Under the pieces are notes generated by a model. The model saw nothing but the letters and a program-made list of their open reading frames with translations, did no database searches and had not been told where the DNA came from. A stretch of DNA of 62,757 nucleotides from Eubacterium sp. (GTDB taxonomy: Bacteria; Bacillota; Clostridia; Lachnospirales; Lachnospiraceae). How positions within the stretch are numbered: position 1 is the stretch's first letter; each line of letters starts with the position of its first letter. The DNA lies in contig JAETSX010000019.1 in the NCBI GenBank assembly GCA_021769425.1, positions 1 to 62,757 on the forward strand. The letters are read 5' to 3'. Positions 46,061-57,056 of this stretch are shown piece after piece. A program made the position numbers and the translations under genes.

Positions 46061-47092
46061 CTAATACAAAAATTCCCTGACATTTTCTTCCGTCACTTTC
46101 TGATAGGGCAGATAAATATATTTTTCATTCTCAAATGCCATTTCATCCATTCCCCTTCCGGTAACCGCTGCAACCGCCAGATTCCCAATGGCCTGCGCCT
46201 GCCCTTCCTTGTCATTGTAGACAGTGGCGGCCACCTTACCTTCAATGACCGCCTCCAATCCGGCTTCCGTTCCGTCAATACCGAAAAACACAGGCAGCGC
46301 CGCCTCCGTATAATTCAGCTTCTTATAGGCGTCAATGGCTCCTAATGCCATGGCGTCATTATTGGCCAGCACCATTTCAATCTGATTGGGATATTGGCTG
46401 AGAAGCTGCTGCATCCGATTCTGCGCCTGAGCCCGATCCCAGTTTGCAATCCCGGAGCCTAATTTTTCCAGAGCAACCCCCTTGCTTTTCAGGGTATCCA
46501 CAGCGCTTTCTGTCCGAATAATGGCATCCTGGTGCCCCGGCTCTCCTTCCAGCACCACATACTGAATTTTTCCGTCCCGGTTTCGATCTGTCTGAGCATC
46601 CCCGGCAACTGCATCCGCAGCCAATTCTCCCTGCATCTCTCCGGACTGCTGGGCTTTCGCCCCTACATAATAGAGTTTTTCCCACTGCATCATATCTTCC
46701 GCCACCGGCTCCCGGTTAAAAAAAATAATGGGCACATCATTATCTCTGGCAAGATCAATAATCTCCGAGGGGTCAGCCCGATCCACCAGATTTACGCAGA
46801 GAACGTTGCAATTCATATCAATCAGCTCCCGAACCTGATCATCCTGCGTACGCTGGGAGCCTGCCGCATCCCTTACCATTACGGTAATCTCAATGCCGCT
46901 GTCCTCCAGCTCCTCAAATTGCTGCTTCAAACAGGAAACCAGTTCCCCCAGGAAAACATCACTCTGATTGTAACAGGCCACCCCCACCTGAATTTTCTCC
47001 GGAACCTCCGACTGCTGTCTGCCGCAGCCGCAAAAAAGCAGAACAAGCATACAGAATGAAATTGCTGCTGTAAAACATCCTTTTATTTTCAT
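46061..47092 (-). CDS. Galactose/glucose-binding lipoprotein, canonical MglB order
   Basis: This 343-residue lipoprotein (lipobox ending at Cys21 or Cys23) has the ordinary MglB layout. The first strand is KIQVGVACYNQSDVF (Asp45, Phe47), followed by FFNREP (Asn126), EGEPGHQD (His187, Asp189, Arg193), Trp218, LANNDAM, GID (Asp273) and VYND (Asn293). The Ca2+ loop DRNRDGKIQ is present. The start at 47092 (MKIKGCF) follows GAGAAG; upstream in-frame codons are tandem-repeat DNA. It is the last gene of the RR-kinase-binding protein operon and has no own ABC genes. It may supply MglAC or act as a sugar sensor. Confidence 0.9.
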   Translation of the reverse strand: MKIKGCFTAAISFCMLVLLFCGCGRQQSEVPEKIQVGVACYNQSDVFLGELVSCLKQQFEELEDSGIEITVMVRDAAGSQRTQDDQVRELIDMNCNVLCVNLVDRADPSEIIDLARDNDVPIIFFNREPVAEDMMQWEKLYYVGAKAQQSGEMQGELAADAVAGDAQTDRNRDGKIQYVVLEGEPGHQDAIIRTESAVDTLKSKGVALEKLGSGIANWDRAQAQNRMQQLLSQYPNQIEMVLANNDAMALGAIDAYKKLNYTEAALPVFFGIDGTEAGLEAVIEGKVAATVYNDKEGQAQAIGNLAVAAVTGRGMDEMAFENEKYIYLPYQKVTEENVREFLY

Positions 47093-47139
47093 AACACTTC
47101 TCCATTCCAACGCCTTTTTCCGGCGCTCTAACCATGAGG

Positions 47140-47397
47140 CATCCATTTACAGAATTTTACCGGCAGCGCTAATCCCCCAGCATCCATCCTCAGAACTTTA
47201 CGGTTGCGCTATTCCCTCAGCATCCATCCTCAGAACTTTACGGATGCGCTATTCCCACGGCATCCATCCTCAGAACTTTACGGGTGCGCTATTCCCTCAG
47301 CATCCATCCTCAGAACTTTACGGGTGCGTTATTCCCTCAGCATCCATCCTCAGAACTTTACGGGTGCGCTATTCCCACGGCATCCATCCGCGAAGTT
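47140..47397. repeat. 40-bp tandem repeat, about six copies
   Basis: Units starting GCATCCATCCTCAGAACTTT repeat with an exact 40-bp period from about 47180 to 47379. A diverged unit precedes them (47140-47179) and a partial one follows that runs into the stop region of the next gene (47398). It fills the 305-bp gap between two binding-protein genes. Five units are nearly identical. There are no spacers, so this is not CRISPR. Nothing else is seen in the gap. Confidence 0.92.
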
Positions 47398-48372
47398 TTA
47401 CTGGCTCATCGTAAACAGAAGTTCCTGATTTTTTTCCGAAAACAAATTTTCCCTGCGCAGCACAGTGCAGGGGACAGTTTGGCTCTGCACAGAGTAAAAA
47501 AAATGTTCCAGTTTCTCCGCCAGCTCCAGCAGACTCTTATATCCCATATGAAACCCATCGGGCACAACCAGGCACTGCACCGCATCTGTATCCAGATAAT
47601 AGGCAGCCTCTGTGGAATTCCCAATGCCGTATACCAACGCGCCGTGCAGATCATTCGCAGCGGAAGCTTTTCCGGCAGCTACCAGGCTTCTGTCATCCAG
47701 CGCAGCCACAACATCCACTTTTGAAAGAGATTTCAGAGAATTCTCCCCTTCTTCTGAAAAAGAACCGGAAACAGACCAACGCACCCTGGCCCCTTCGCTC
47801 TCCAACGCCTCCCGCAGCCCCCGCTCCCGGCTGTCTGAAGCCGCAGAATCCCTATCCTCAGAAAGAATTCCAAAGTTTTTCCCCGTTATGTTCCCGCCGT
47901 AATCTTTGCACACTTCCTCTGCCAGCGACTTTCCGGCCGCATAATTATCCGGCCCCGTCACCGGAAGGGGGGACTTTTCTTCTTCCCGAGCCGCCGCACA
48001 CAAAGCCAGCATAACGGGAGTTTTTTTCTCCATTCTCTTTAACATCTCTTCTGTTTCCTGTCCCGGGACAGGCTGCACAATCACGGCATCCGCCCCGTTG
48101 CCAATTTCCAATTCCATCAGATCCTTTTCCTCTTCCAGGGTCAGAATATTTCCTGTGCTGACAATAGACAGTTCAATGTTCTGATCCTCTGCCGCCATCT
48201 TAAGGCCGTATTTAAAAGAAGCCCACTGGCTGCTGTCGGAATTCTGAATAATCACAGCCACCTTATAACGGCTTTCTCCGTTTTTCTCCCAAAATACGCG
48301 GACCACCAGCACAATCAGCAGCGCTGCCAATACAGATTCTACCAGAATAAAAATTTTCCTGTTATTTTTCAT
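47398..48372 (-). CDS. Membrane-anchored periplasmic-binding-type sensor protein
   Basis: This 324-residue protein has one N-terminal membrane helix (about 7-28) and no lipobox, followed by a sugar-type periplasmic binding fold. The fold begins KVAVIIQNSDSSQW and continues through ADAVIVQPVPG, VTGPDNYAAGKSLAEEV and VVAALDDRSLVAAG. Compared with MglB the ligand residues are poorly conserved. It overlaps the end of the histidine kinase gene by 11 bases. The arrangement matches three-component systems such as XylFII-LytS, in which an anchored binding protein presents the sugar signal to the kinase. The ligand is unknown, but the nearby mgl operon suggests galactose or glucose. Confidence 0.85.
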   Translation of the reverse strand: MKNNRKIFILVESVLAALLIVLVVRVFWEKNGESRYKVAVIIQNSDSSQWASFKYGLKMAAEDQNIELSIVSTGNILTLEEEKDLMELEIGNGADAVIVQPVPGQETEEMLKRMEKKTPVMLALCAAAREEEKSPLPVTGPDNYAAGKSLAEEVCKDYGGNITGKNFGILSEDRDSAASDSRERGLREALESEGARVRWSVSGSFSEEGENSLKSLSKVDVVAALDDRSLVAAGKASAANDLHGALVYGIGNSTEAAYYLDTDAVQCLVVPDGFHMGYKSLLELAEKLEHFFYSVQSQTVPCTVLRRENLFSEKNQELLFTMSQ

Positions 48373-50212
48373 TGCTCAATTCCTCTCTGCTCAACAGATG
48401 TCCCCTTTCCAGAATTTTCCTGTTTTCTTCTGTAAAGGCCACTGCCGGGATACGGATGGAAACTTCTGTTCCCTCATCCAATTCACTGACCACTTTAAGT
48501 CCATATTCTTTTCCAAATAATATCTGAATGCGTTTGTTGACATTGACAAGGCCAACCCCTGACCCATGCCCCTGTTTTCTGCCGCTGTCTGTCAACAGCA
48601 GCTCCGCGGCCTCCCTGGTCATCCCCATACCGTTGTCTGAAACTGACAGAACCACCATTTGGTCTGTAAGCGTTCCAGTCACCCGAATCTCACCGGTTTC
48701 TTCCATACCGTCCATCCCATAATTGATGGCATTTTCCAAAATGGGCTGCAAAATCAGCTTCACCGTACAGCAGAAATTAATGGCAGGATCTATATCAAAC
48801 TCTACCGAAAACGCATTTTTATAGCGGATTTTCTGGATATTCATATAGCTTTTCGCATGCTGCAGTTCATCTTTTACCGTGATAATTGTACGCCCTTTAG
48901 AAAGGCTGATGCGAAACAGCCTGGCCAGCTCCGATATCATAAAGGATGCCTCTTCATTCCGCTCATCTTCCACCATCCAGATAATGGAATCCAGGGTATT
49001 ATAGAGAAAATGAGGATTAATCTGACTCTGCAGGGCATCCAGTTCACTTTTTCTGCGCTCATTCTGTTCTAAGACAATCTCTTTCATCAACTTGTCTATC
49101 TGCTCATAGGAAGTCTGAATAGAATATCCCAGATGCCTGATTTCCTGGGAACCTCCGATATATATTTCCGGCGTTTCCCCCGCCTCATACTCCACCACTG
49201 AAGCATTCAGCTTTAAGATAGGGCTGGAAATCCTTACCGACACCACCCGGTTGACAAACACCAGCATCATTGCCATAAATAGCATAAAAATTCCAAAAAA
49301 ATGGCGAATATTAAACATTCCATTAGTAAAAGCAGAATACGGAATCACCCCCACCAGCTTCCATCCCGTATAGCTGATGGTATTGACAATCACTTTCCGG
49401 TGTTCCCCTTCAAAATATTCATCGTACACGCCGTCTTTGCAGGAGGCTGCATACCTGCTGTTTTCGCTGCCAATGCCATTACTGATCTGAACCTGGCGGG
49501 TATGGTAAATAATCTGCCCGCTGCTGTCACACAGATAAAAATACTGTCCGTTGCCGGCTCCATTTATCTGCTTCATCATACGCTCAATTCCCGAATAATC
49601 CATGTCCACCAAAAGCACACCCGACCGGGGAACTCCTTGATCGGTCAGTTCCACCACCCGGCTCAGAGAAATCACCCAATAATACCTAAGCGCCCCATCG
49701 TCAAACAAATTCTGGATATGGGGCGTGGAAAAATGCATATTTTCCACTTCCTCCAGGGCGTTTTCATACCATCCCTGTCTGGTGATATTGGGATCTTCTT
49801 TCTGCAGCACCACAGGCTCCGCGGCCATCAGGCTGCCATATTCATTGTATACGGCAATGCTGCGCAGATTCTCTCGGTTGGCCGCATACAGCAGATTCAT
49901 CCCCTGCTGGATCTCCTGATTTTCTCTGGAAAAATCCTTTTCCTTGATCACATTGTAATAAATGGAATCCGATACCCTCCGCATGCTGACCAGGTAATCC
50001 TCCAGATTTTCCCCTGCCTGCCCAATCAGTTTCTGAGTGCCGGAAATAAGTTCCTGCCGGGCCGAAGCGGTAAAACTGAGATACATCACAATCCCTAAAA
50101 TCAGCAAAACAGAAAAAGATATCACAGAAAACACAATCATAATCGTAGACTGGATTCCCCGCAGTTCCGGTTTTTTCAAGAATTTGAAATGTTTATCCCT
50201 CACGCTTTGCAT
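48362..50212 (-). CDS. Sensor histidine kinase, YesM/LytS type
   Basis: This 616-residue kinase has two membrane helices (about 22-45 and 290-315) flanking a large extracytoplasmic dCache-like region, then HAMP. The His_kinase domain carries His401 in SQINPHFLYNTLDS, and the HATPase has LQPILENAINYG and GSGVGLVNVNKR. The start is near 50212 (MQSVRDKH) with GGAG upstream, inside the end of the response-regulator gene; GTG 50203 is an alternative. It phosphorylates the YesN-type regulator encoded immediately upstream and is followed by the anchored binding protein. Confidence 0.92.
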   Translation of the reverse strand: MQSVRDKHFKFLKKPELRGIQSTIMIVFSVISFSVLLILGIVMYLSFTASARQELISGTQKLIGQAGENLEDYLVSMRRVSDSIYYNVIKEKDFSRENQEIQQGMNLLYAANRENLRSIAVYNEYGSLMAAEPVVLQKEDPNITRQGWYENALEEVENMHFSTPHIQNLFDDGALRYYWVISLSRVVELTDQGVPRSGVLLVDMDYSGIERMMKQINGAGNGQYFYLCDSSGQIIYHTRQVQISNGIGSENSRYAASCKDGVYDEYFEGEHRKVIVNTISYTGWKLVGVIPYSAFTNGMFNIRHFFGIFMLFMAMMLVFVNRVVSVRISSPILKLNASVVEYEAGETPEIYIGGSQEIRHLGYSIQTSYEQIDKLMKEIVLEQNERRKSELDALQSQINPHFLYNTLDSIIWMVEDERNEEASFMISELARLFRISLSKGRTIITVKDELQHAKSYMNIQKIRYKNAFSVEFDIDPAINFCCTVKLILQPILENAINYGMDGMEETGEIRVTGTLTDQMVVLSVSDNGMGMTREAAELLLTDSGRKQGHGSGVGLVNVNKRIQILFGKEYGLKVVSELDEGTEVSIRIPAVAFTEENRKILERGHLLSREELSNEK

Positions 50213-51797
50213 GCTCCGTTCTGTATTTTGAAGGTGAGGCTCCAAACCGCTTTTTAAACACATAGCTGAAATAATTCGGATCGGAGTAACCCACCTGACT
50301 GGCGATCATATAGCTTTTCTCACTGGTTTCAATCAAAAGGCGGGCTGCACGGTCCAACCGGTAATCTGTCAGATACCCGATAAATGAATTGCCTGTCTCT
50401 CTTTTGAATACCGTAGAAAAATAGGAATTGGATACCCCCAGAGACGCGCAGACATCATCCAGAGAAAGATTTGCGTCCGCAAAATGATTCTGTACATACT
50501 CCATTGCTCCGGTTACCAGAGATTCCGTAGAACTGCTCCGCACACGGATTAACTGTTCCCGGAAAGAAAAACTCACCTCCAGCAGCCAGTTTTTCAATGC
50601 GTCCGGGTCCATATCCAGCAGGCTGCTGTACAGCCTTCCCATATCCTCAGTATCCTCTCCCATTGCAATACCATTATTGGCAGAAAACCGCAGCAGCATG
50701 CTCAGCAGCTCCATCCGTTCCATATAATGCTGCTGCAGAGGTTTTTCCGTAAATGAAGTATGCAGAAAATACCGGTTCACCGCATCTGCAATCTCTTGCT
50801 CAGAACCTACCCGTATCATCCGAAACAAATCTGACAGCTCCTCCTCGCTGGAAACAACAGACCGATCCATCTTCTGAGGAACAATTTCCTTAATATTGAT
50901 GGCCCTGGATGCACCATAAACCGCCCGGTAGGATACTGCTTCTCTTGCGCTGCTGTAAGACCTTGGCAGTTCCAGAATATTTTCGCATATCTGGCCGATC
51001 CCAATTGTGACAACTGCCCCCAGCATCCGCTTGGCATACCTGCAGAACCGGTCGCACTCATCTGTCAGCTCCCAGACCTCATTTTCACTTCCAAGCTGCA
51101 GAATAAGCACAGTATTTCCAAGATACGCAAAGCTTTTGGCCTGCCACCTCTTCCCCAGCCGCTCCTTTGCATGTTCCCGGACAGAAGCAGCCAACAGCAG
51201 CGGATCAATCGTTCCCGCTTCCTGACTGGAAGAAATATGAATGACCAGACAGCAGAAAAACGGCCCCGAAAATGAGAGCTGACAATCTGAAAGATACCTG
51301 GAAATCTCATCCTCATGAACTCTTCCCTCAATCAGGCCCGAATAAAAATCCGCCCGCAAAAGCGGAAGCGACTCCAGATAATACTTCTGCAATGTTTCCA
51401 CATTGCGCTTTTCATTGATTTCCTGATCCAGTTTTATTTTTAACTGGGAAAAGATGGCTTTCAGCTCCGCAGAGCTTACCGGCTTTAAAATATATTCCTC
51501 CACTTCCAGATGAATGGCTTCTTTTGCATATTCAAACTCGTCAAATCCTGTAAACAGCAGAATCTTTGTGGCAGGGAATTCTGTTTTCACCCGGTTGGAC
51601 AGTTCCATGCCGTCCATATAAGGCATCTTGATATCTGTTACCAGCACATCCGGCTGATATTCCTCCACCAATTCCAACGCTTTCACACCGTTGCCAGCAG
51701 ATCCAATTACGAAAAAACCCAACTCTTCCCAATTAATTTTGCGCATAATAACCTGTATCACTTCTTCTTCATCGTCCACTAAAAGTACGGTATACAT
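50193..51797 (-). CDS. Response regulator with AraC output, YesN type
   Basis: This 534-residue regulator has a receiver domain with Asp8-Asp9, phosphoacceptor Asp55 in VLVTDIKMPYMDG and Lys in YILKPVSS. The long middle region (about 130-420) has no known fold. The C-terminal AraC DNA-binding domain shows LSLDDVCASLGVSNSYFSTVF, then MIASQVGYSDPNYFSYVF. The start at 51797 (MYTVLLVDDE) lies 8 bases after GGGGGAAG. It is the first gene of the sensing operon, directly downstream of mglC, and probably controls mglBAC or the genes with it. Confidence 0.93.
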   Translation of the reverse strand: MYTVLLVDDEEEVIQVIMRKINWEELGFFVIGSAGNGVKALELVEEYQPDVLVTDIKMPYMDGMELSNRVKTEFPATKILLFTGFDEFEYAKEAIHLEVEEYILKPVSSAELKAIFSQLKIKLDQEINEKRNVETLQKYYLESLPLLRADFYSGLIEGRVHEDEISRYLSDCQLSFSGPFFCCLVIHISSSQEAGTIDPLLLAASVREHAKERLGKRWQAKSFAYLGNTVLILQLGSENEVWELTDECDRFCRYAKRMLGAVVTIGIGQICENILELPRSYSSAREAVSYRAVYGASRAINIKEIVPQKMDRSVVSSEEELSDLFRMIRVGSEQEIADAVNRYFLHTSFTEKPLQQHYMERMELLSMLLRFSANNGIAMGEDTEDMGRLYSSLLDMDPDALKNWLLEVSFSFREQLIRVRSSSTESLVTGAMEYVQNHFADANLSLDDVCASLGVSNSYFSTVFKRETGNSFIGYLTDYRLDRAARLLIETSEKSYMIASQVGYSDPNYFSYVFKKRFGASPSKYRTEHAKREG

Positions 51798-51850
51798 ATC
51801 TTTATCTTCCCCCAAATCCGGTGTTATTATCTGAAACGAATATTTACCTA

Positions 51851-52287: not shown

Positions 52288-53934
52288 TTATTTTTTCTGT
52301 ACATATTTCAGACAGTCAAGAGTTACCGCTGAAATAATGATAATTCCTTCAAATACAAACTGCAGGTTTGTGTCAATACCAAGAATAGTAAGAGAATAGG
52401 TAAGCGCGGTAAAAATCAACACACCGACTACTACTCCTGAAATTTTACCAATACCGCCGGTAAAGGAAACGCCGCCCACTACGCAGGCTGCAATAGCGTC
52501 CATATCCCAGCCCTGCCCATAAGCTGCAGAACCGGAACCAACCATTCTTGCGCATTCCAGCCAGGAACCGAAACCGTACAGAACGCCTGCCAGCATAAAT
52601 GCTCCCATGGTTACTTTGAATACGGAAATACCGGAAACAGAAGCAGCCTCCGGGTTGCCGCCCACTGCATACAGGTTCTTGCCGAATGTAGTCTTATTCC
52701 AGATAAACCAGATAATTGCAATTGCTGCAACCGCCCAGAGAATAATAGTTGGGAAACCATTTACTTTTGGAATAATCATATTTGGAATCGCTGGTTCAAT
52801 AGCTCCGAACGATACTCCCTTGGTGGCATATGTAATGATACCGAAGATCATCAGCATGTTAGCCATAGTTGAAATAAAGGGGTGCATCTTGAATTTTGCG
52901 GTAAAGAAACCAGCCAATGAGGTAAAACAAGTACATAAGAAAATACATACCACCAACGCAAATATAATCCGTACAGGAATCGGAAGCCCTGTAAAGTCAA
53001 AAATATGTCCAAATACTCCGCCGGTATTAATTCCCTGGTGCATAATAATGGTAGCCGTGGTCATACCCATACCAACCATACGTCCGATAGAAAGGTCTGT
53101 ACCGGTAAGCAGAATCAATCCCGCAACTCCAAGGGCAAGGAACATTCGGGGTGAAGCCTGCTGAAGAATATTCAGCACATTGTTATAGGTAAGCAGCGGC
53201 GTATTCTTTACAATAGGCGTAATAATACACAATGCCACAAAAATCAATACAATAACGATATACAAACCATTCTGTAAAAAGAAAGATCTGCGGTTAAAGG
53301 TATACTTGTAATTTTCCCACTTCTGTGCCCTTGCTTCCATAAATGTAAACTTGGACATACGCAGCATATCAATCAAATGGTATTTGTGGGCAAAAGCTGC
53401 ATGCTTCTTATCTTTGATCTCCTGAAGATCTTTTTCCAGTTCCATCTTAGCCGCAAACAGCCTGTTTTTGTGCACATACTTTTCGTCCTTGATTTCATTG
53501 TGGTCAGAAAGTTTTGCCAGAGCTTCTTTATGCTCCTTTTCCAGACGTTCCACTTCTTTGGAGTATTTCTCCTTTGCAAGCGCTTTCTCTCGCTCGCAGC
53601 TTTCTTTCACCGGCTGGAAATAGTCCTTATCAAAGTTCGCTTTCAGAAATTCTTCCGCCTGCCCGATTAATGCTGCAATCTTCTCTTTATTTTTAGTCTC
53701 CACCGCCCTGGCCTGTTCCAGTTCCGTCTGGTATTTGGCAATTTTGGCGTCTTTCTCCTCTCTTGTATAAATGCGGTCTCTCTTTACGCTGTCAATCTCA
53801 TTCTGGATAGAGATAACTTTATTTGTGCCGTCTGCCCGCAAGCTGTCAATTTCTTTCTGAATTGCACCGACACGATCATCAATTGGCTTACGCAGCTTCA
53901 TTTCCTGCTCAGCCGTAAGAATTTTATTATCCAT
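52288..53934 (-). CDS. mglC: Galactose ABC transporter permease with coiled-coil extension
   Basis: This 548-residue protein ends in a normal sugar permease of the RbsC/MglC family (about 218-548) with LALGVAGLILLTGTDLSIGRMVG, AVGGNPEAASVSGI and CVVGGVSFTGGIG. Residues 1-217 are an extra cytoplasmic, highly charged, mostly coiled-coil region absent from the roughly 336-residue E. coli MglC. It has heptad-like stretches at about 20-90 and 110-180. The start at 53934 follows a GGAGG site. It lies 15 bases after mglA and ends before a good terminator. The extension may contact MglA or a regulator. Confidence 0.93.
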   Translation of the reverse strand: MDNKILTAEQEMKLRKPIDDRVGAIQKEIDSLRADGTNKVISIQNEIDSVKRDRIYTREEKDAKIAKYQTELEQARAVETKNKEKIAALIGQAEEFLKANFDKDYFQPVKESCEREKALAKEKYSKEVERLEKEHKEALAKLSDHNEIKDEKYVHKNRLFAAKMELEKDLQEIKDKKHAAFAHKYHLIDMLRMSKFTFMEARAQKWENYKYTFNRRSFFLQNGLYIVIVLIFVALCIITPIVKNTPLLTYNNVLNILQQASPRMFLALGVAGLILLTGTDLSIGRMVGMGMTTATIIMHQGINTGGVFGHIFDFTGLPIPVRIIFALVVCIFLCTCFTSLAGFFTAKFKMHPFISTMANMLMIFGIITYATKGVSFGAIEPAIPNMIIPKVNGFPTIILWAVAAIAIIWFIWNKTTFGKNLYAVGGNPEAASVSGISVFKVTMGAFMLAGVLYGFGSWLECARMVGSGSAAYGQGWDMDAIAACVVGGVSFTGGIGKISGVVVGVLIFTALTYSLTILGIDTNLQFVFEGIIIISAVTLDCLKYVQKK

Positions 53935-53949
53935 ATTTATTTTGCCTCC

Positions 53950-55458
53950 CTACAGGTATTTGGCGCTGAGCCTTAAGAGTTCTTCCTGATTTGTCTCTTT
54001 CGTATTGACAATCCCGGAAAGATGTCCGTTGGACATTACGCCGATCCGGTTGGTAATTCCCAGGATTTCCGGCATCTCAGAGGAAACCACAAGTATGGTC
54101 TTGCCCTGCTTTGCCATATTGATAATCAGTTCGTAAATCTCATATTTTGCGCCTACATCAATTCCTCTCGTGGGTTCGTCCATCATAAAAATCTGCGGGC
54201 CGCGCTCTAACCATTTTCCAAAAATAACCTTTTGCTGGTTACCGCCGGAAAGGTTCGCAATCATGTCTTCCGGACCCATGCATTTTGTATGCATCACCTT
54301 AATCTCATTTGCGGTCGCCTTGGTCATCTTCTGCTGATCCAGAGCAATGCCGGATTTGTACTCAGGCAGATTTGCAATGGTGGTATTGAAAATCAGATTG
54401 CCTTTTAAAAACAGCCCGTTGGCCTTGCGCTCCTCTGTAATCAGCGCAAATCCATGTTCCATGGCTTCTAACGCACTGTTAAAGTTCATCAGGCGATTCT
54501 TAAAATACACACGCCCTGCGGCTCTGGTACGGATTCCGAAAATAGTTTCCAGAAGCTCTGTTCTCCCGGCTCCTACCAGGCCGTACAACCCAAAAATCTC
54601 TCCTTCTCTCACATCAAAGGTGATATCCTGCAGATGAGGTTCATATTTAGTGGACAGATTCTGAATGGACAGAATCACATCTCCCGGCTTATTGTCCACC
54701 GGCGGGAACCGATTTTCCAGAGAACGTCCAACCATGGCTGCAATCAGCTCATTCATATCTGTGTCTTTTGCGTCTTTAGTCATAACCAGGTTACCGTCAC
54801 GTAGCACTGATATTTCATCACAAATCTCAAAAATCTCATCCATTTTATGGGAAATATAAATCAAGGAAATTCCCTGGGATTTCAACATCCGCATCATTTC
54901 AAACAGCTTATCCACTTCCTGCACCGTCAGGGAAGAGGTAGGCTCATCTAATACAATTACTTTTGAATTATAAGAAATTGCCTTTGCAATCTCACACATC
55001 TGTCTCTGCGATACTGACATATTCCGCATGGGCTGGGTAAGGTTCACCGTCATTCCCAGCTTCCGGAACAACTCTGAGGCTTCTTTTTTCATTCTGCCTT
55101 CATCCACAATCCCCATGGAATTCACGGGATAGCGGCCAAGGAACAGATTGTCAATGACATTTCTTTCCAGACACTGGTTTAATTCCTGATGCACCATTGC
55201 AATTCCATTTTCCAGCGCATCCTTCGGACCGGAAAAACTTACTTCCTTGCCGTCAAGAAAAATATTTCCCTCATCCTTCTGGTAAGTCCCGAACAGGCAT
55301 TTCATCATCGTTGACTTTCCCGCGCCGTTCTCACCCATCAGTCCCATTACCGTGCCGCGCTTAATATCAAGATTAATATGATCCAGCACACGGTTCCGGC
55401 CAAAAGACTTGCTCATGCCCCGTATCGATAAGACGGTATTATCTTTCTTATCTGCCAT
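53950..55458 (-). CDS. mglA: Galactose ABC transporter ATPase (two nucleotide-binding domains)
   Basis: This 502-residue tandem ABC ATPase of the MglA/RbsA family drives sugar import through MglC. Domain 1 has GENGAGKST (about 41-49), MSVSQRQMCEIAKA and VIVLDEPTSSL. Domain 2 has the degenerate Walker A GLVGAGRTE, signature LSGGNQQKVIFGKWL and IFMMDEPTRGID. The degenerate second site is normal for the family. It lies between mglB (263-bp gap holding repeats and a terminator-like hairpin) and mglC (15-bp gap). Confidence 0.95.
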   Translation of the reverse strand: MADKKDNTVLSIRGMSKSFGRNRVLDHINLDIKRGTVMGLMGENGAGKSTMMKCLFGTYQKDEGNIFLDGKEVSFSGPKDALENGIAMVHQELNQCLERNVIDNLFLGRYPVNSMGIVDEGRMKKEASELFRKLGMTVNLTQPMRNMSVSQRQMCEIAKAISYNSKVIVLDEPTSSLTVQEVDKLFEMMRMLKSQGISLIYISHKMDEIFEICDEISVLRDGNLVMTKDAKDTDMNELIAAMVGRSLENRFPPVDNKPGDVILSIQNLSTKYEPHLQDITFDVREGEIFGLYGLVGAGRTELLETIFGIRTRAAGRVYFKNRLMNFNSALEAMEHGFALITEERKANGLFLKGNLIFNTTIANLPEYKSGIALDQQKMTKATANEIKVMHTKCMGPEDMIANLSGGNQQKVIFGKWLERGPQIFMMDEPTRGIDVGAKYEIYELIINMAKQGKTILVVSSEMPEILGITNRIGVMSNGHLSGIVNTKETNQEELLRLSAKYL

Positions 55459-55500
55459 TTTGTTACTCCTGTATGTGTAATTGATAGTTACGGAAATAAT

Positions 55501-55536
55501 AAAAAGCTGCCAGAAAGAAAATTCCTTCCTGGCAGC
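55501..55536 (-). terminator. Terminator-like hairpin between mglB and mglA
   Basis: GCTGCCAG and CTGGCAGC arms enclose 15 bases and are followed on the minus strand by TTTTTATTATT. It would reduce read-through from mglB into mglA and mglC. This would fit the excess of binding protein over transporter that ABC systems need. Confidence 0.8.
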
Positions 55537-55560
55537 CCGCTTTCACAGCTGAAAACCTAC

Positions 55561-55700
55561 TGCTGTATTGAGAAAACTAAAGCTCTCGCAATACAGATGG
55601 CCATGCGGCCCGCCAGACAGCTGGCTGCACAATATAGGGCTGCTGTATTGAGAAAATTAAAACTCTCGCAATACAGATGGCCGTGCGGCCCGCCAGACAG
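55561..55700. repeat. Duplicated 60-bp hairpin unit between mglB and mglA
   Basis: Two 60-bp copies (55561-55620 and 55641-55700) match at 57 positions, with an 80-bp period. Each has CTGTATTG...CAATACAG arms enclosing AGA/TCT, followed by GGCC(A/G)TGCGGCCCGCCAG. That core recurs in inverse sense at 187-345. The units begin 21 bases past the mglB stop and would cap the mglB mRNA 3' end. Confidence 0.85.
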
Positions 55701-55721
55701 CAAGTCACGCAATGCGGCTGC

Positions 55722-57056
55722 TTACTGACTAAGCAAAGATGTATAGGAAGCTGCGTTATCTGTCTTCACCATGTTGATTGCAAATGCATCATACTGGCCT
55801 GGATTTCCAAGACGGTTTGTAATATTGGACTCTGTCTGTCCGTCACCGCCGATATACTCAACTTCAAGATTCAGAACATCATCGTAATTCTGAAGCAGCG
55901 GCTGATAAGTAGAGCTTAAGAAGTTGTCGGAAGCATTATAGATATTCAGCCATACTTTCTTGGTTGCATGGGAGCCTTCGTCAAGCTGTTTGGATACAGG
56001 CTCATAGATCTTTGTAGAATCTGTGAAATCCTGATAATTGTCAGCTGTAACTGCTACGTTCAATGCATAATAGGAACGCTCTTCTTCTCTGTAAACATAT
56101 ACATCATCGGTCAGAACATTGCCTGCTTCGTCTGCAGTTCCGATTCCTGTGTCAATGTCAACGCCGTCTAACGCATTGCGGAGCACTCTTAAGGTCAGAT
56201 ATGCCTGTACGTCTGCATGCTGGCTGATAGTTCCGCCATATCCTTCTGCGATTGCTGCAACTGCATCGCTGTTTGCATCGTAACCGAAAGTAGGAACTTT
56301 ATTATCTTTGGACCATGCATTAAACATGGACATTCCCATACCGTCATTATTGGAAACTACAACGTCAATGTTGTCTCCGAAAGAAGAAGACCATGTTCCG
56401 ATTGCATTGCCTGCTGTAGCTGCATCCCAAGTAGCTCCTGCGGAGTTCTTCATTTCCTGAGAAGCAAGTTCGCGTACGACATATTTCTTGCCGCCGACTT
56501 CAATCTCGCCGTCCTGTACCATAGTCGCTGTTCCGTCTGTATTGGTGCCTGCAGGAGTGCTGTCGATATTGCCGTCTTTGTCCACGCCGGTTCCAAGAGC
56601 CTTGCGAACGCCTCTGGTACGTGCGATGGAATCATTATGTCCGATATCGCCGATTGCCAGAACATAACCGATGGTGCCGTCGCCGTTGCGGTCAATCTCA
56701 TCAATGTGAGCTTCGATATATTCTTTTACCATGGTTCCCTGAAGTTCTGCACCCTGGTTAGCATCAAATCCTACATAATATGTATTGGCATTAAAGTTCA
56801 AAGCTGCTGTATCCAGTTCACCGGTTGAGCTGTTGGAAGGCTGACGGTTGAACCATACCAACGGTTTATCTTTATTTGCCACATCTCCTGTGGAGCCAGC
56901 ATCTTCGCCGGCATCTGCGTCTGCTGCAGGCTCTTGGGTTTCCTCTTTCTTGTCTGTGTTATCTGCCGGAGCATTTCCGCCTCCGCTGTTGCCGCATGCT
57001 GTAAGGGAAAGCCCAAGGGCTAACGCCAAAGTTACAGAAACAAATTTCTTCTTCAT
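55722..57056 (-). CDS. mglB: Galactose/glucose-binding lipoprotein, circularly permuted MglB
   Basis: This 444-residue lipoprotein (lipobox LTAC, Cys21) has an acidic linker (about 22-62). The mature fold then starts at KPLVWFNRQPS, which in ordinary MglB lies about 90 residues in. The usual order follows: DRNGDGTIG Ca2+ loop (122-130), GHND (His140, Asp142, Arg146), Trp210, SNNDGM (235-240) and YD (Asp260). The usual C-terminal strand (ALNVAVTADNYQDF) ends near 344. After a linker, residues 367-444 (KVWLNIYNASDNFLSS to AFAINMVKTDNAA) match the normal N-terminus, including Asp377 and Phe379. It is the high-abundance binding subunit for MglAC. Confidence 0.92.
   Translation of the reverse strand: MKKKFVSVTLALALGLSLTACGNSGGGNAPADNTDKKEETQEPAADADAGEDAGSTGDVANKDKPLVWFNRQPSNSSTGELDTAALNFNANTYYVGFDANQGAELQGTMVKEYIEAHIDEIDRNGDGTIGYVLAIGDIGHNDSIARTRGVRKALGTGVDKDGNIDSTPAGTNTDGTATMVQDGEIEVGGKKYVVRELASQEMKNSAGATWDAATAGNAIGTWSSSFGDNIDVVVSNNDGMGMSMFNAWSKDNKVPTFGYDANSDAVAAIAEGYGGTISQHADVQAYLTLRVLRNALDGVDIDTGIGTADEAGNVLTDDVYVYREEERSYYALNVAVTADNYQDFTDSTKIYEPVSKQLDEGSHATKKVWLNIYNASDNFLSSTYQPLLQNYDDVLNLEVEYIGGDGQTESNITNRLGNPGQYDAFAINMVKTDNAASYTSLLSQ

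Follow-up and report, generated by a model that had tools for sequence, protein, structure and literature searches.

The stretch of DNA analysed here (the window) comprises 62,757 nucleotides of contig JAETSX010000019.1 of assembly GCA_021769425.1 from Eubacterium sp. (Lachnospiraceae) and carries on its minus strand an mgl-type sugar importer operon, in which the galactose-binding protein MglB is encoded in a circularly permuted form. Downstream of it are the genes of an MglA-type ATPase and an MglC-type permease, followed by a two-component system, a second binding protein, and an MglB-like lipoprotein of canonical order (Table 1).

Table 1. Features of the permuted mgl operon and of the genes downstream of it (positions in the window)
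Feature	Position	Strand	Description
Circularly permuted MglB-type glucose/galactose-binding lipoprotein	55722..57056	minus	444 amino acids; lipobox Cys21, tether ~22-60, folded domain ~61-444
C-terminal segment corresponding to the N-terminal part of canonical MglB	55722..55958	minus	residues 367-444 and stop; PF18610 at 365-435
mglB-mglA intergenic hairpins	55500..55701	minus	two 62-nucleotide direct repeats and a hairpin with U run
MglA-type ATPase, probable partner	53950..55458	minus	502 amino acids; best NCBIfam match MglA, 661 bits (cut-off 828, not reached)
MglC-type permease	52288..53934	minus	548 amino acids; residues 216-548 match the MglC model, 277.9 bits (cut-off 386, not reached)
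MglC N-terminal extension, charged, predicted helical	53296..53934	minus	residues 1-213, without Pfam match
Response regulator	50193..51815	minus	receiver and AraC-type helix-turn-helix
Sensor histidine kinase	48362..50263	minus	dCache_1, His_kinase and HATPase_c
Second Peripla_BP_4 protein	47398..48372	minus	N-terminal hydrophobic segment; weak TorT match, far below cut-off
Canonical-order MglB-like lipoprotein, probable sensor-side binding protein	46061..47092	minus	all ten E. coli MglB contacts conserved

The permuted protein possesses the lipobox LTAC followed by a low-complexity tether, both read from the sequence. An earlier reading made from the sequence only had placed the start of the mature chain at KPLVWFN; this motif does open the folded domain, while the mature chain itself is expected to begin at Cys21. 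The domain is covered in Pfam by Peripla_BP_4 (residues 90-298) and Peripla_BP_7 (PF18610), the latter scoring 141.9 bits against a cut-off of 36.8. The use of PF18610 as a marker of the permuted class is a choice of this analysis, since the family is not named in the relevant passages of PMC4990184, the paper on Tp0684 discussed below.

The segments of MglB stand in this protein in rotated order. When it was compared by phmmer with PDB sequences, the E. coli and Salmonella MglB chains aligned in two separate stretches each, and Tp0684 of Treponema pallidum aligned in a single stretch (residues 61-442, E = 1.5e-89), the alignment to structure 5JX2 continuing through the connector that joins the old C- and N-termini. 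Profile-profile comparison assigned residues 62-346 to positions 106-331 of the E. coli MglB precursor and residues 360-441 to positions 20-102, which leaves some three residues of the canonical chain uncovered where it is broken. The signal peptide of E. coli MglB is taken here to be 23 residues long, and in the mature numbering that results the order is 83-308 and then 1-79, joined by a connector some 13 residues long. The canonical profile consisted of 23 MglB rows, namely E. coli and 22 transport-side rows, two of which repeat the same gene; in this and in the later HMM (hidden Markov model), contact and operon counts some loci overlap (e.g., L140/L152, L142/L172, L002/L168), and the rows are not all independent. 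In a sequential structure comparison, which is not permutation-aware, the predicted model matched E. coli MglB only in part and Tp0684 from end to end, and it is from the latter match that the strand order is deduced. The quality of the model counts against this reading: confidence is low at residues 1-57, 205-216, 261-271, and 431-434, and the predicted local distance difference test score (pLDDT) ranged from 52 to 72 in five model versions. By sequence and predicted structure taken together, the first lobe is formed from both chain ends, with the MglB segments in circular order. Thus the natural circular permutation proposed in the sequence-only reading, together with the lobe built from both ends and the relocated lipid anchor, is borne out by sequence, profile, and predicted-structure comparison.

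The same reading knew of no description of such a protein, which proved wrong. Tp0684 (TpMglB-2; PDB 5JX2, 6BGC, and 6BGD) had its structure published in 2016 as that of a circularly permuted MglB. According to the relevant passages of PMC4990184, it binds D-glucose, the permease gene tp0686, considered there for the distribution of its homologues, is named its transporter partner, the subclass name Type Ic / Cluster Bc was proposed for the topology, and proteins built in the same way are encoded by other treponemes and by many Gram-positive bacteria, among which gut commensals are numerous. An additional connector with a fourth lobe-to-lobe crossover between the old termini, and closure on bound D-glucose, are further features expected of the class. 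The window protein shares with Tp0684 the circular order from end to end at 40-43% identity and the tethered lipoprotein architecture; it differs in additional residues around 160-180, in the Asp that it keeps at the D14 position, where Tp0684 has Asn (PMC4990184), and in being encoded beside a canonical MglB-like protein and a two-component system. With E. coli MglB it shares the fold family and a largely kept EF-type calcium loop (by sequence and PMC4990184), while it is rotated by about 80 residues, is a lipoprotein, and remains far below the cut-off of the canonical NCBIfam MglB equivalog NF011924 (93 bits in two stretches; cut-off 420). Since both topology and class are already published, the window protein is very probably an uncharacterised member of the Tp0684 (TpMglB-2) class, Type Ic / Cluster Bc, with probable binding of glucose/galactose and hand-over to MglA-MglC. 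What is added here is the evidence for permutation and not graft, the canonical form encoded side by side with the permuted one, and the permease extension. Gut commensals are offered as a setting in which to ask what purpose, if any, the rotated topology serves, a question left open in the PMC4990184 passages. As to its formation, an ancestral mglB would have been rotated, probably through duplication and end trimming; what used to be the N-terminal part of lobe 1 would thereby have become the C-terminus, the lipid anchor and tether would join the fold at what was once a mid-lobe loop, and the former C- and N-termini would be linked by the connector. The lobes would then close on D-glucose or D-galactose, and the sugar would be passed to the adjacently encoded MglA-MglC.

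The permuted form recurs in the family of the host. PF18610 was found in 45 of 397 genomes sampled from Lachnospiraceae and in 2 of 398 sampled from the phylum (the window's genome included in both), and in none of 14 control genomes. In a contig scan 421 relatives were recognized among 498 pattern matches, and the best 80 of these 421 make up the named loci. Outside the phylum, replicon pTS2 of Treponema saccharophilum encodes a permuted MglB that is 45% identical over residues 59-442. That the permuted order is an artefact of assembly or annotation can be given practically no credence, because the moved segment recurs in the 45 family genomes with internal stops in none of the 46 listed matches, is present in the best 80 of the 421 relatives, and belongs to an order for which a relative, Tp0684, has crystal structures.

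A more serious alternative was raised in 2016: the relevant passages of PMC4990184 give 13% as the identity of the C-terminus of Tp0684 to the N-terminus of E. coli MglB, and they leave room for an origin of the C-terminal segment from a different gene, resembling MglB only because the fold demands it. In profile-profile comparison the moved segment of the window protein matched the N-terminus of canonical MglB in register, with 76 aligned columns and P 3.6e-6, and also matched the sensor-side canonical MglB-like set (P 2.6e-5). An HMM of the moved segment was run on 3,960 open reading frame (ORF) entries, duplicates included, from mgl-type loci, so that other binding-protein families were little sampled. 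At E <= 10 it recovered 223 rows: 121 permuted ones, which are the source of the HMM, 97 canonical MglB-like, one of the second-binding-protein type, and four unlabelled. The top 40 non-permuted rows were all canonical MglB-like, 39 matching at the N-terminus and one weakly in a second domain, with a best non-permuted E of 3.7e-6. In addition, a single-copy canonical profile was matched in circular order in six of six chosen permuted proteins, its start (positions 2-5 onward) coming last with E values of 2.3e-5 to 0.005 for this last piece.

Some results weigh on the other side. The 24% identity of the moved segment is, like the 13% of Tp0684, a modest similarity, and a doubled canonical profile brought no gain on the window protein (124.2 bits against 124.1 for the single copy), while 50 scrambled controls gave a mean of 120.8 and a maximum of 124.5 bits. 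The doubled-profile domains in the window protein and in L168 stopped short of the moved segment. Among the six targets chosen in all, for which doubling did not raise the full-sequence score, the last domain crossed the join in L164, L097, and L165, and in T. saccharophilum one domain spanned it (profile 70-390), at 155.8 bits doubled versus 158.1 single. Nevertheless, the in-register match, the ranking of canonical MglB N-termini above all other non-permuted ORFs of the mgl-type loci, the conservation of the D14- and F16-equivalent contacts, and a canonical chain accounted for save the few residues at the break make the different-gene origin quite improbable. Because the best non-permuted matches of the moved segment are canonical MglB N-termini, a true permutation of mglB appears much more likely than a graft as judged from these comparisons, and the possibility considered in the sequence-only reading, that residues 367-444 match another family, is answered in favour of MglB within the loci searched.

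The sugar-binding site is preserved through the rotation. The ten E. coli MglB glucose contacts listed in Table 2 of PMC4990184 correspond to D377, F379, N70, H140, D142, R146, W210, N237, D260, and Q279, of which nine are identical and Q279 replaces N256. Nine of these correspondences had been proposed earlier and hold; to them is added N237 for E. coli N211. Each of the ten residues is invariant in 122 of 122 permuted rows, the window protein included, some of which stem from loci that overlap within one genome. In the calcium loop, DRNGDGTIG, the Q142 position is occupied by Gly, as it is in Tp0684 (PMC4990184). Judging from the conserved contacts, the order of the genes, and the glucose binding that was measured for Tp0684, the function most likely is glucose/galactose capture for MglA-MglC. 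It is unlikely, though less so than a graft origin of the moved segment, that the protein binds another sugar or serves mainly in signalling or chemotaxis. Such a role would be consistent with the discussion of Tp0684 as a chemoreceptor (PMC4990184), with the Gln at the N256 position, which counts against the preferred function, and with a second permuted MglB of one genome (L165:3561-4874) that has no mglA or mglC in the surrounding 16 kb; it is opposed by the nine identical contacts and their constancy in all 122 rows, by mglA and mglC lying directly downstream, and by Tp0684, which has the same Gln and binds D-glucose (PMC4990184). The second copy in L165 adjoins ORFs that were named by reading as sugar-kinase-like and aldo/keto-reductase-like.

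The permease encoded beside the permuted protein is longer than the one beside canonical MglB. In the 134 MglA-like rows examined, 107 stood with permuted MglB, 24 with canonical MglB, and three without MglB. The 107 permuted rows divide into 77 with an MglC of at least 500 amino acids, three with a short MglC, and 27 without MglC as the DNA piece or contig ended; of the 24 canonical rows, whose loci were hand-picked from the list, 22 had MglC and two had none (piece ended). Thus MglC reached at least 500 amino acids in 77 of the 80 permuted operons with MglC in reach, the three short ones being either cut by contig ends (L068 and L074) or split into two frames (L055), and beside canonical MglB it measured at most 410 amino acids in 22 of 22 cases and less than 400 in 20 of them. 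The difference lies in the N-terminal arm, residues 1-213 in the window, for which Pfam gave no match up to E 0.1 and an arm HMM failed to recognise the 22 canonical-side MglC proteins (best shown E 63). In the predicted model the arm consists of long helices, residues 11-190 having a pLDDT of about 79-94; the same model is poor in its membrane part, and the predicted template modelling score (pTM) of the whole is 0.36. In two canonical operons (L145 and L146) MglC has 409-410 amino acids, about 74 of which are added at the N-terminus and form a hydrophobic stretch different from the arm.

The search with residues 1-213 found the arm in 45 of 397 family genomes, which by-eye comparison showed to be the identical 45 of the PF18610 set (the window's genome included), with a match partial or in pieces in three of them (G398, G640, and G600); seven first-look candidates per genome were scored, and absence elsewhere holds within that limit. 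The MglC of T. saccharophilum (562 amino acids) has a related arm, with 50 of 205 aligned residues identical and an arm-HMM E of 6.4e-12, where the best of 200 shuffled versions of this segment reached 2.9. In a quick MglA tree without bootstrap, 27 permuted operons (26 chosen out of the 77 and T. saccharophilum, which has a long branch) form one side of a branch with a Shimodaira-Hasegawa-like approximate likelihood ratio (SH-aLRT) of 100, and one origin may therefore explain why permuted MglB and arm are found together. As far as these sequences indicate, the two may go back to a single ancient association that both phyla have retained, rather than to many separate ones. Since both occur in the same sampled family genomes and in a Treponema, it is tentatively suggested, as a possibility with the balance still tilted against it, that permuted MglB and the long helical cytoplasmic arm make up one changed importer subtype, in which the arm would regulate or stabilise MglA or link the importer to another cytoplasmic partner and the moved anchor would alter docking of the tethered binding protein. 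A narrow search of the open literature found no description of the MglC arm, which is less expected than the permutation; it is this arm and the paired canonical protein of sensor type that deserve to be followed further.

This second protein, the canonical-order neighbour noticed in the sequence-only reading, is real and likewise lies on the minus strand, its ORF spanning 46061-47146 when read from the first Met and 46061-47092 when read from the second. Among the 97 canonical MglB-like rows, which count the window protein twice, N91, D154, R158, N211, and D236 are invariant, and N256 is Asn in 76. The response regulator of the block is presumably YesN-like. A comparable system is XylFII-LytS, the ligand of which is taken to be xylose. 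Here too (5XSJ) a second binding protein is encoded beside a histidine kinase and a response regulator. The same holds for CuaD-CuaS-CuaR, described in the relevant passages of PMC10384115 as a three-component system for cellobiose, in which these genes also stand together beside a sugar importer; it differs from the window in its ligand, cellobiose, and in that here the sensor-side protein is MglB-like, the transport-side one is permuted, and sensing is deduced from the genes. By analogy with CuaD-CuaS-CuaR (PMC10384115), genes 46061-51815 are probably a sugar-sensing block, in which the MglB-like lipoprotein, second binding protein, kinase, and regulator would most likely detect the sugar taken up by the importer and regulate the operon.

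The arrangement is conserved. After 21 of the 80 named loci with less than 9.3 kb downstream were set aside, 47 of the 59 assessed showed permuted mglB, mglA, mglC, response regulator, histidine kinase, second binding protein, and canonical MglB-like gene in this order; in the remaining 12, mglA and mglC were present and the block was incomplete, in at least one (L039) since the piece ends inside it. Permuted and canonical forms are thus often adjacent in one conserved block, the permuted one for transport and the canonical one probably for sensing. Comparable sensor blocks are also encoded next to operons whose transport MglB is canonical, and no such block was present in the piece of T. saccharophilum read. 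In a tree of 42 kinases (permuted loci partly chosen, L105 not included) the permuted and canonical labels need at least five changes, three of them forced by well-supported branches, which suggests, from sequence relationships, that permuted and canonical importers were repeatedly exchanged beside related sensor blocks. In L162, L101, and L105 the permuted operon has a kinase gene and a canonical MglB-like gene on its upstream side.

The DNA between mglB and mglA contains hairpin-forming direct repeats at 55560-55621 and 55640-55701, 80 bases apart, which resemble in sequence a REP-type family; related DNA has at least 50 matches in the same genome (itself included), several of them paired about 78-80 bases apart. 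Just upstream of mglA a strong hairpin at about 55500-55537 (minus strand) is followed by a U run and is possibly a partial terminator through which more binding protein than importer would be made.
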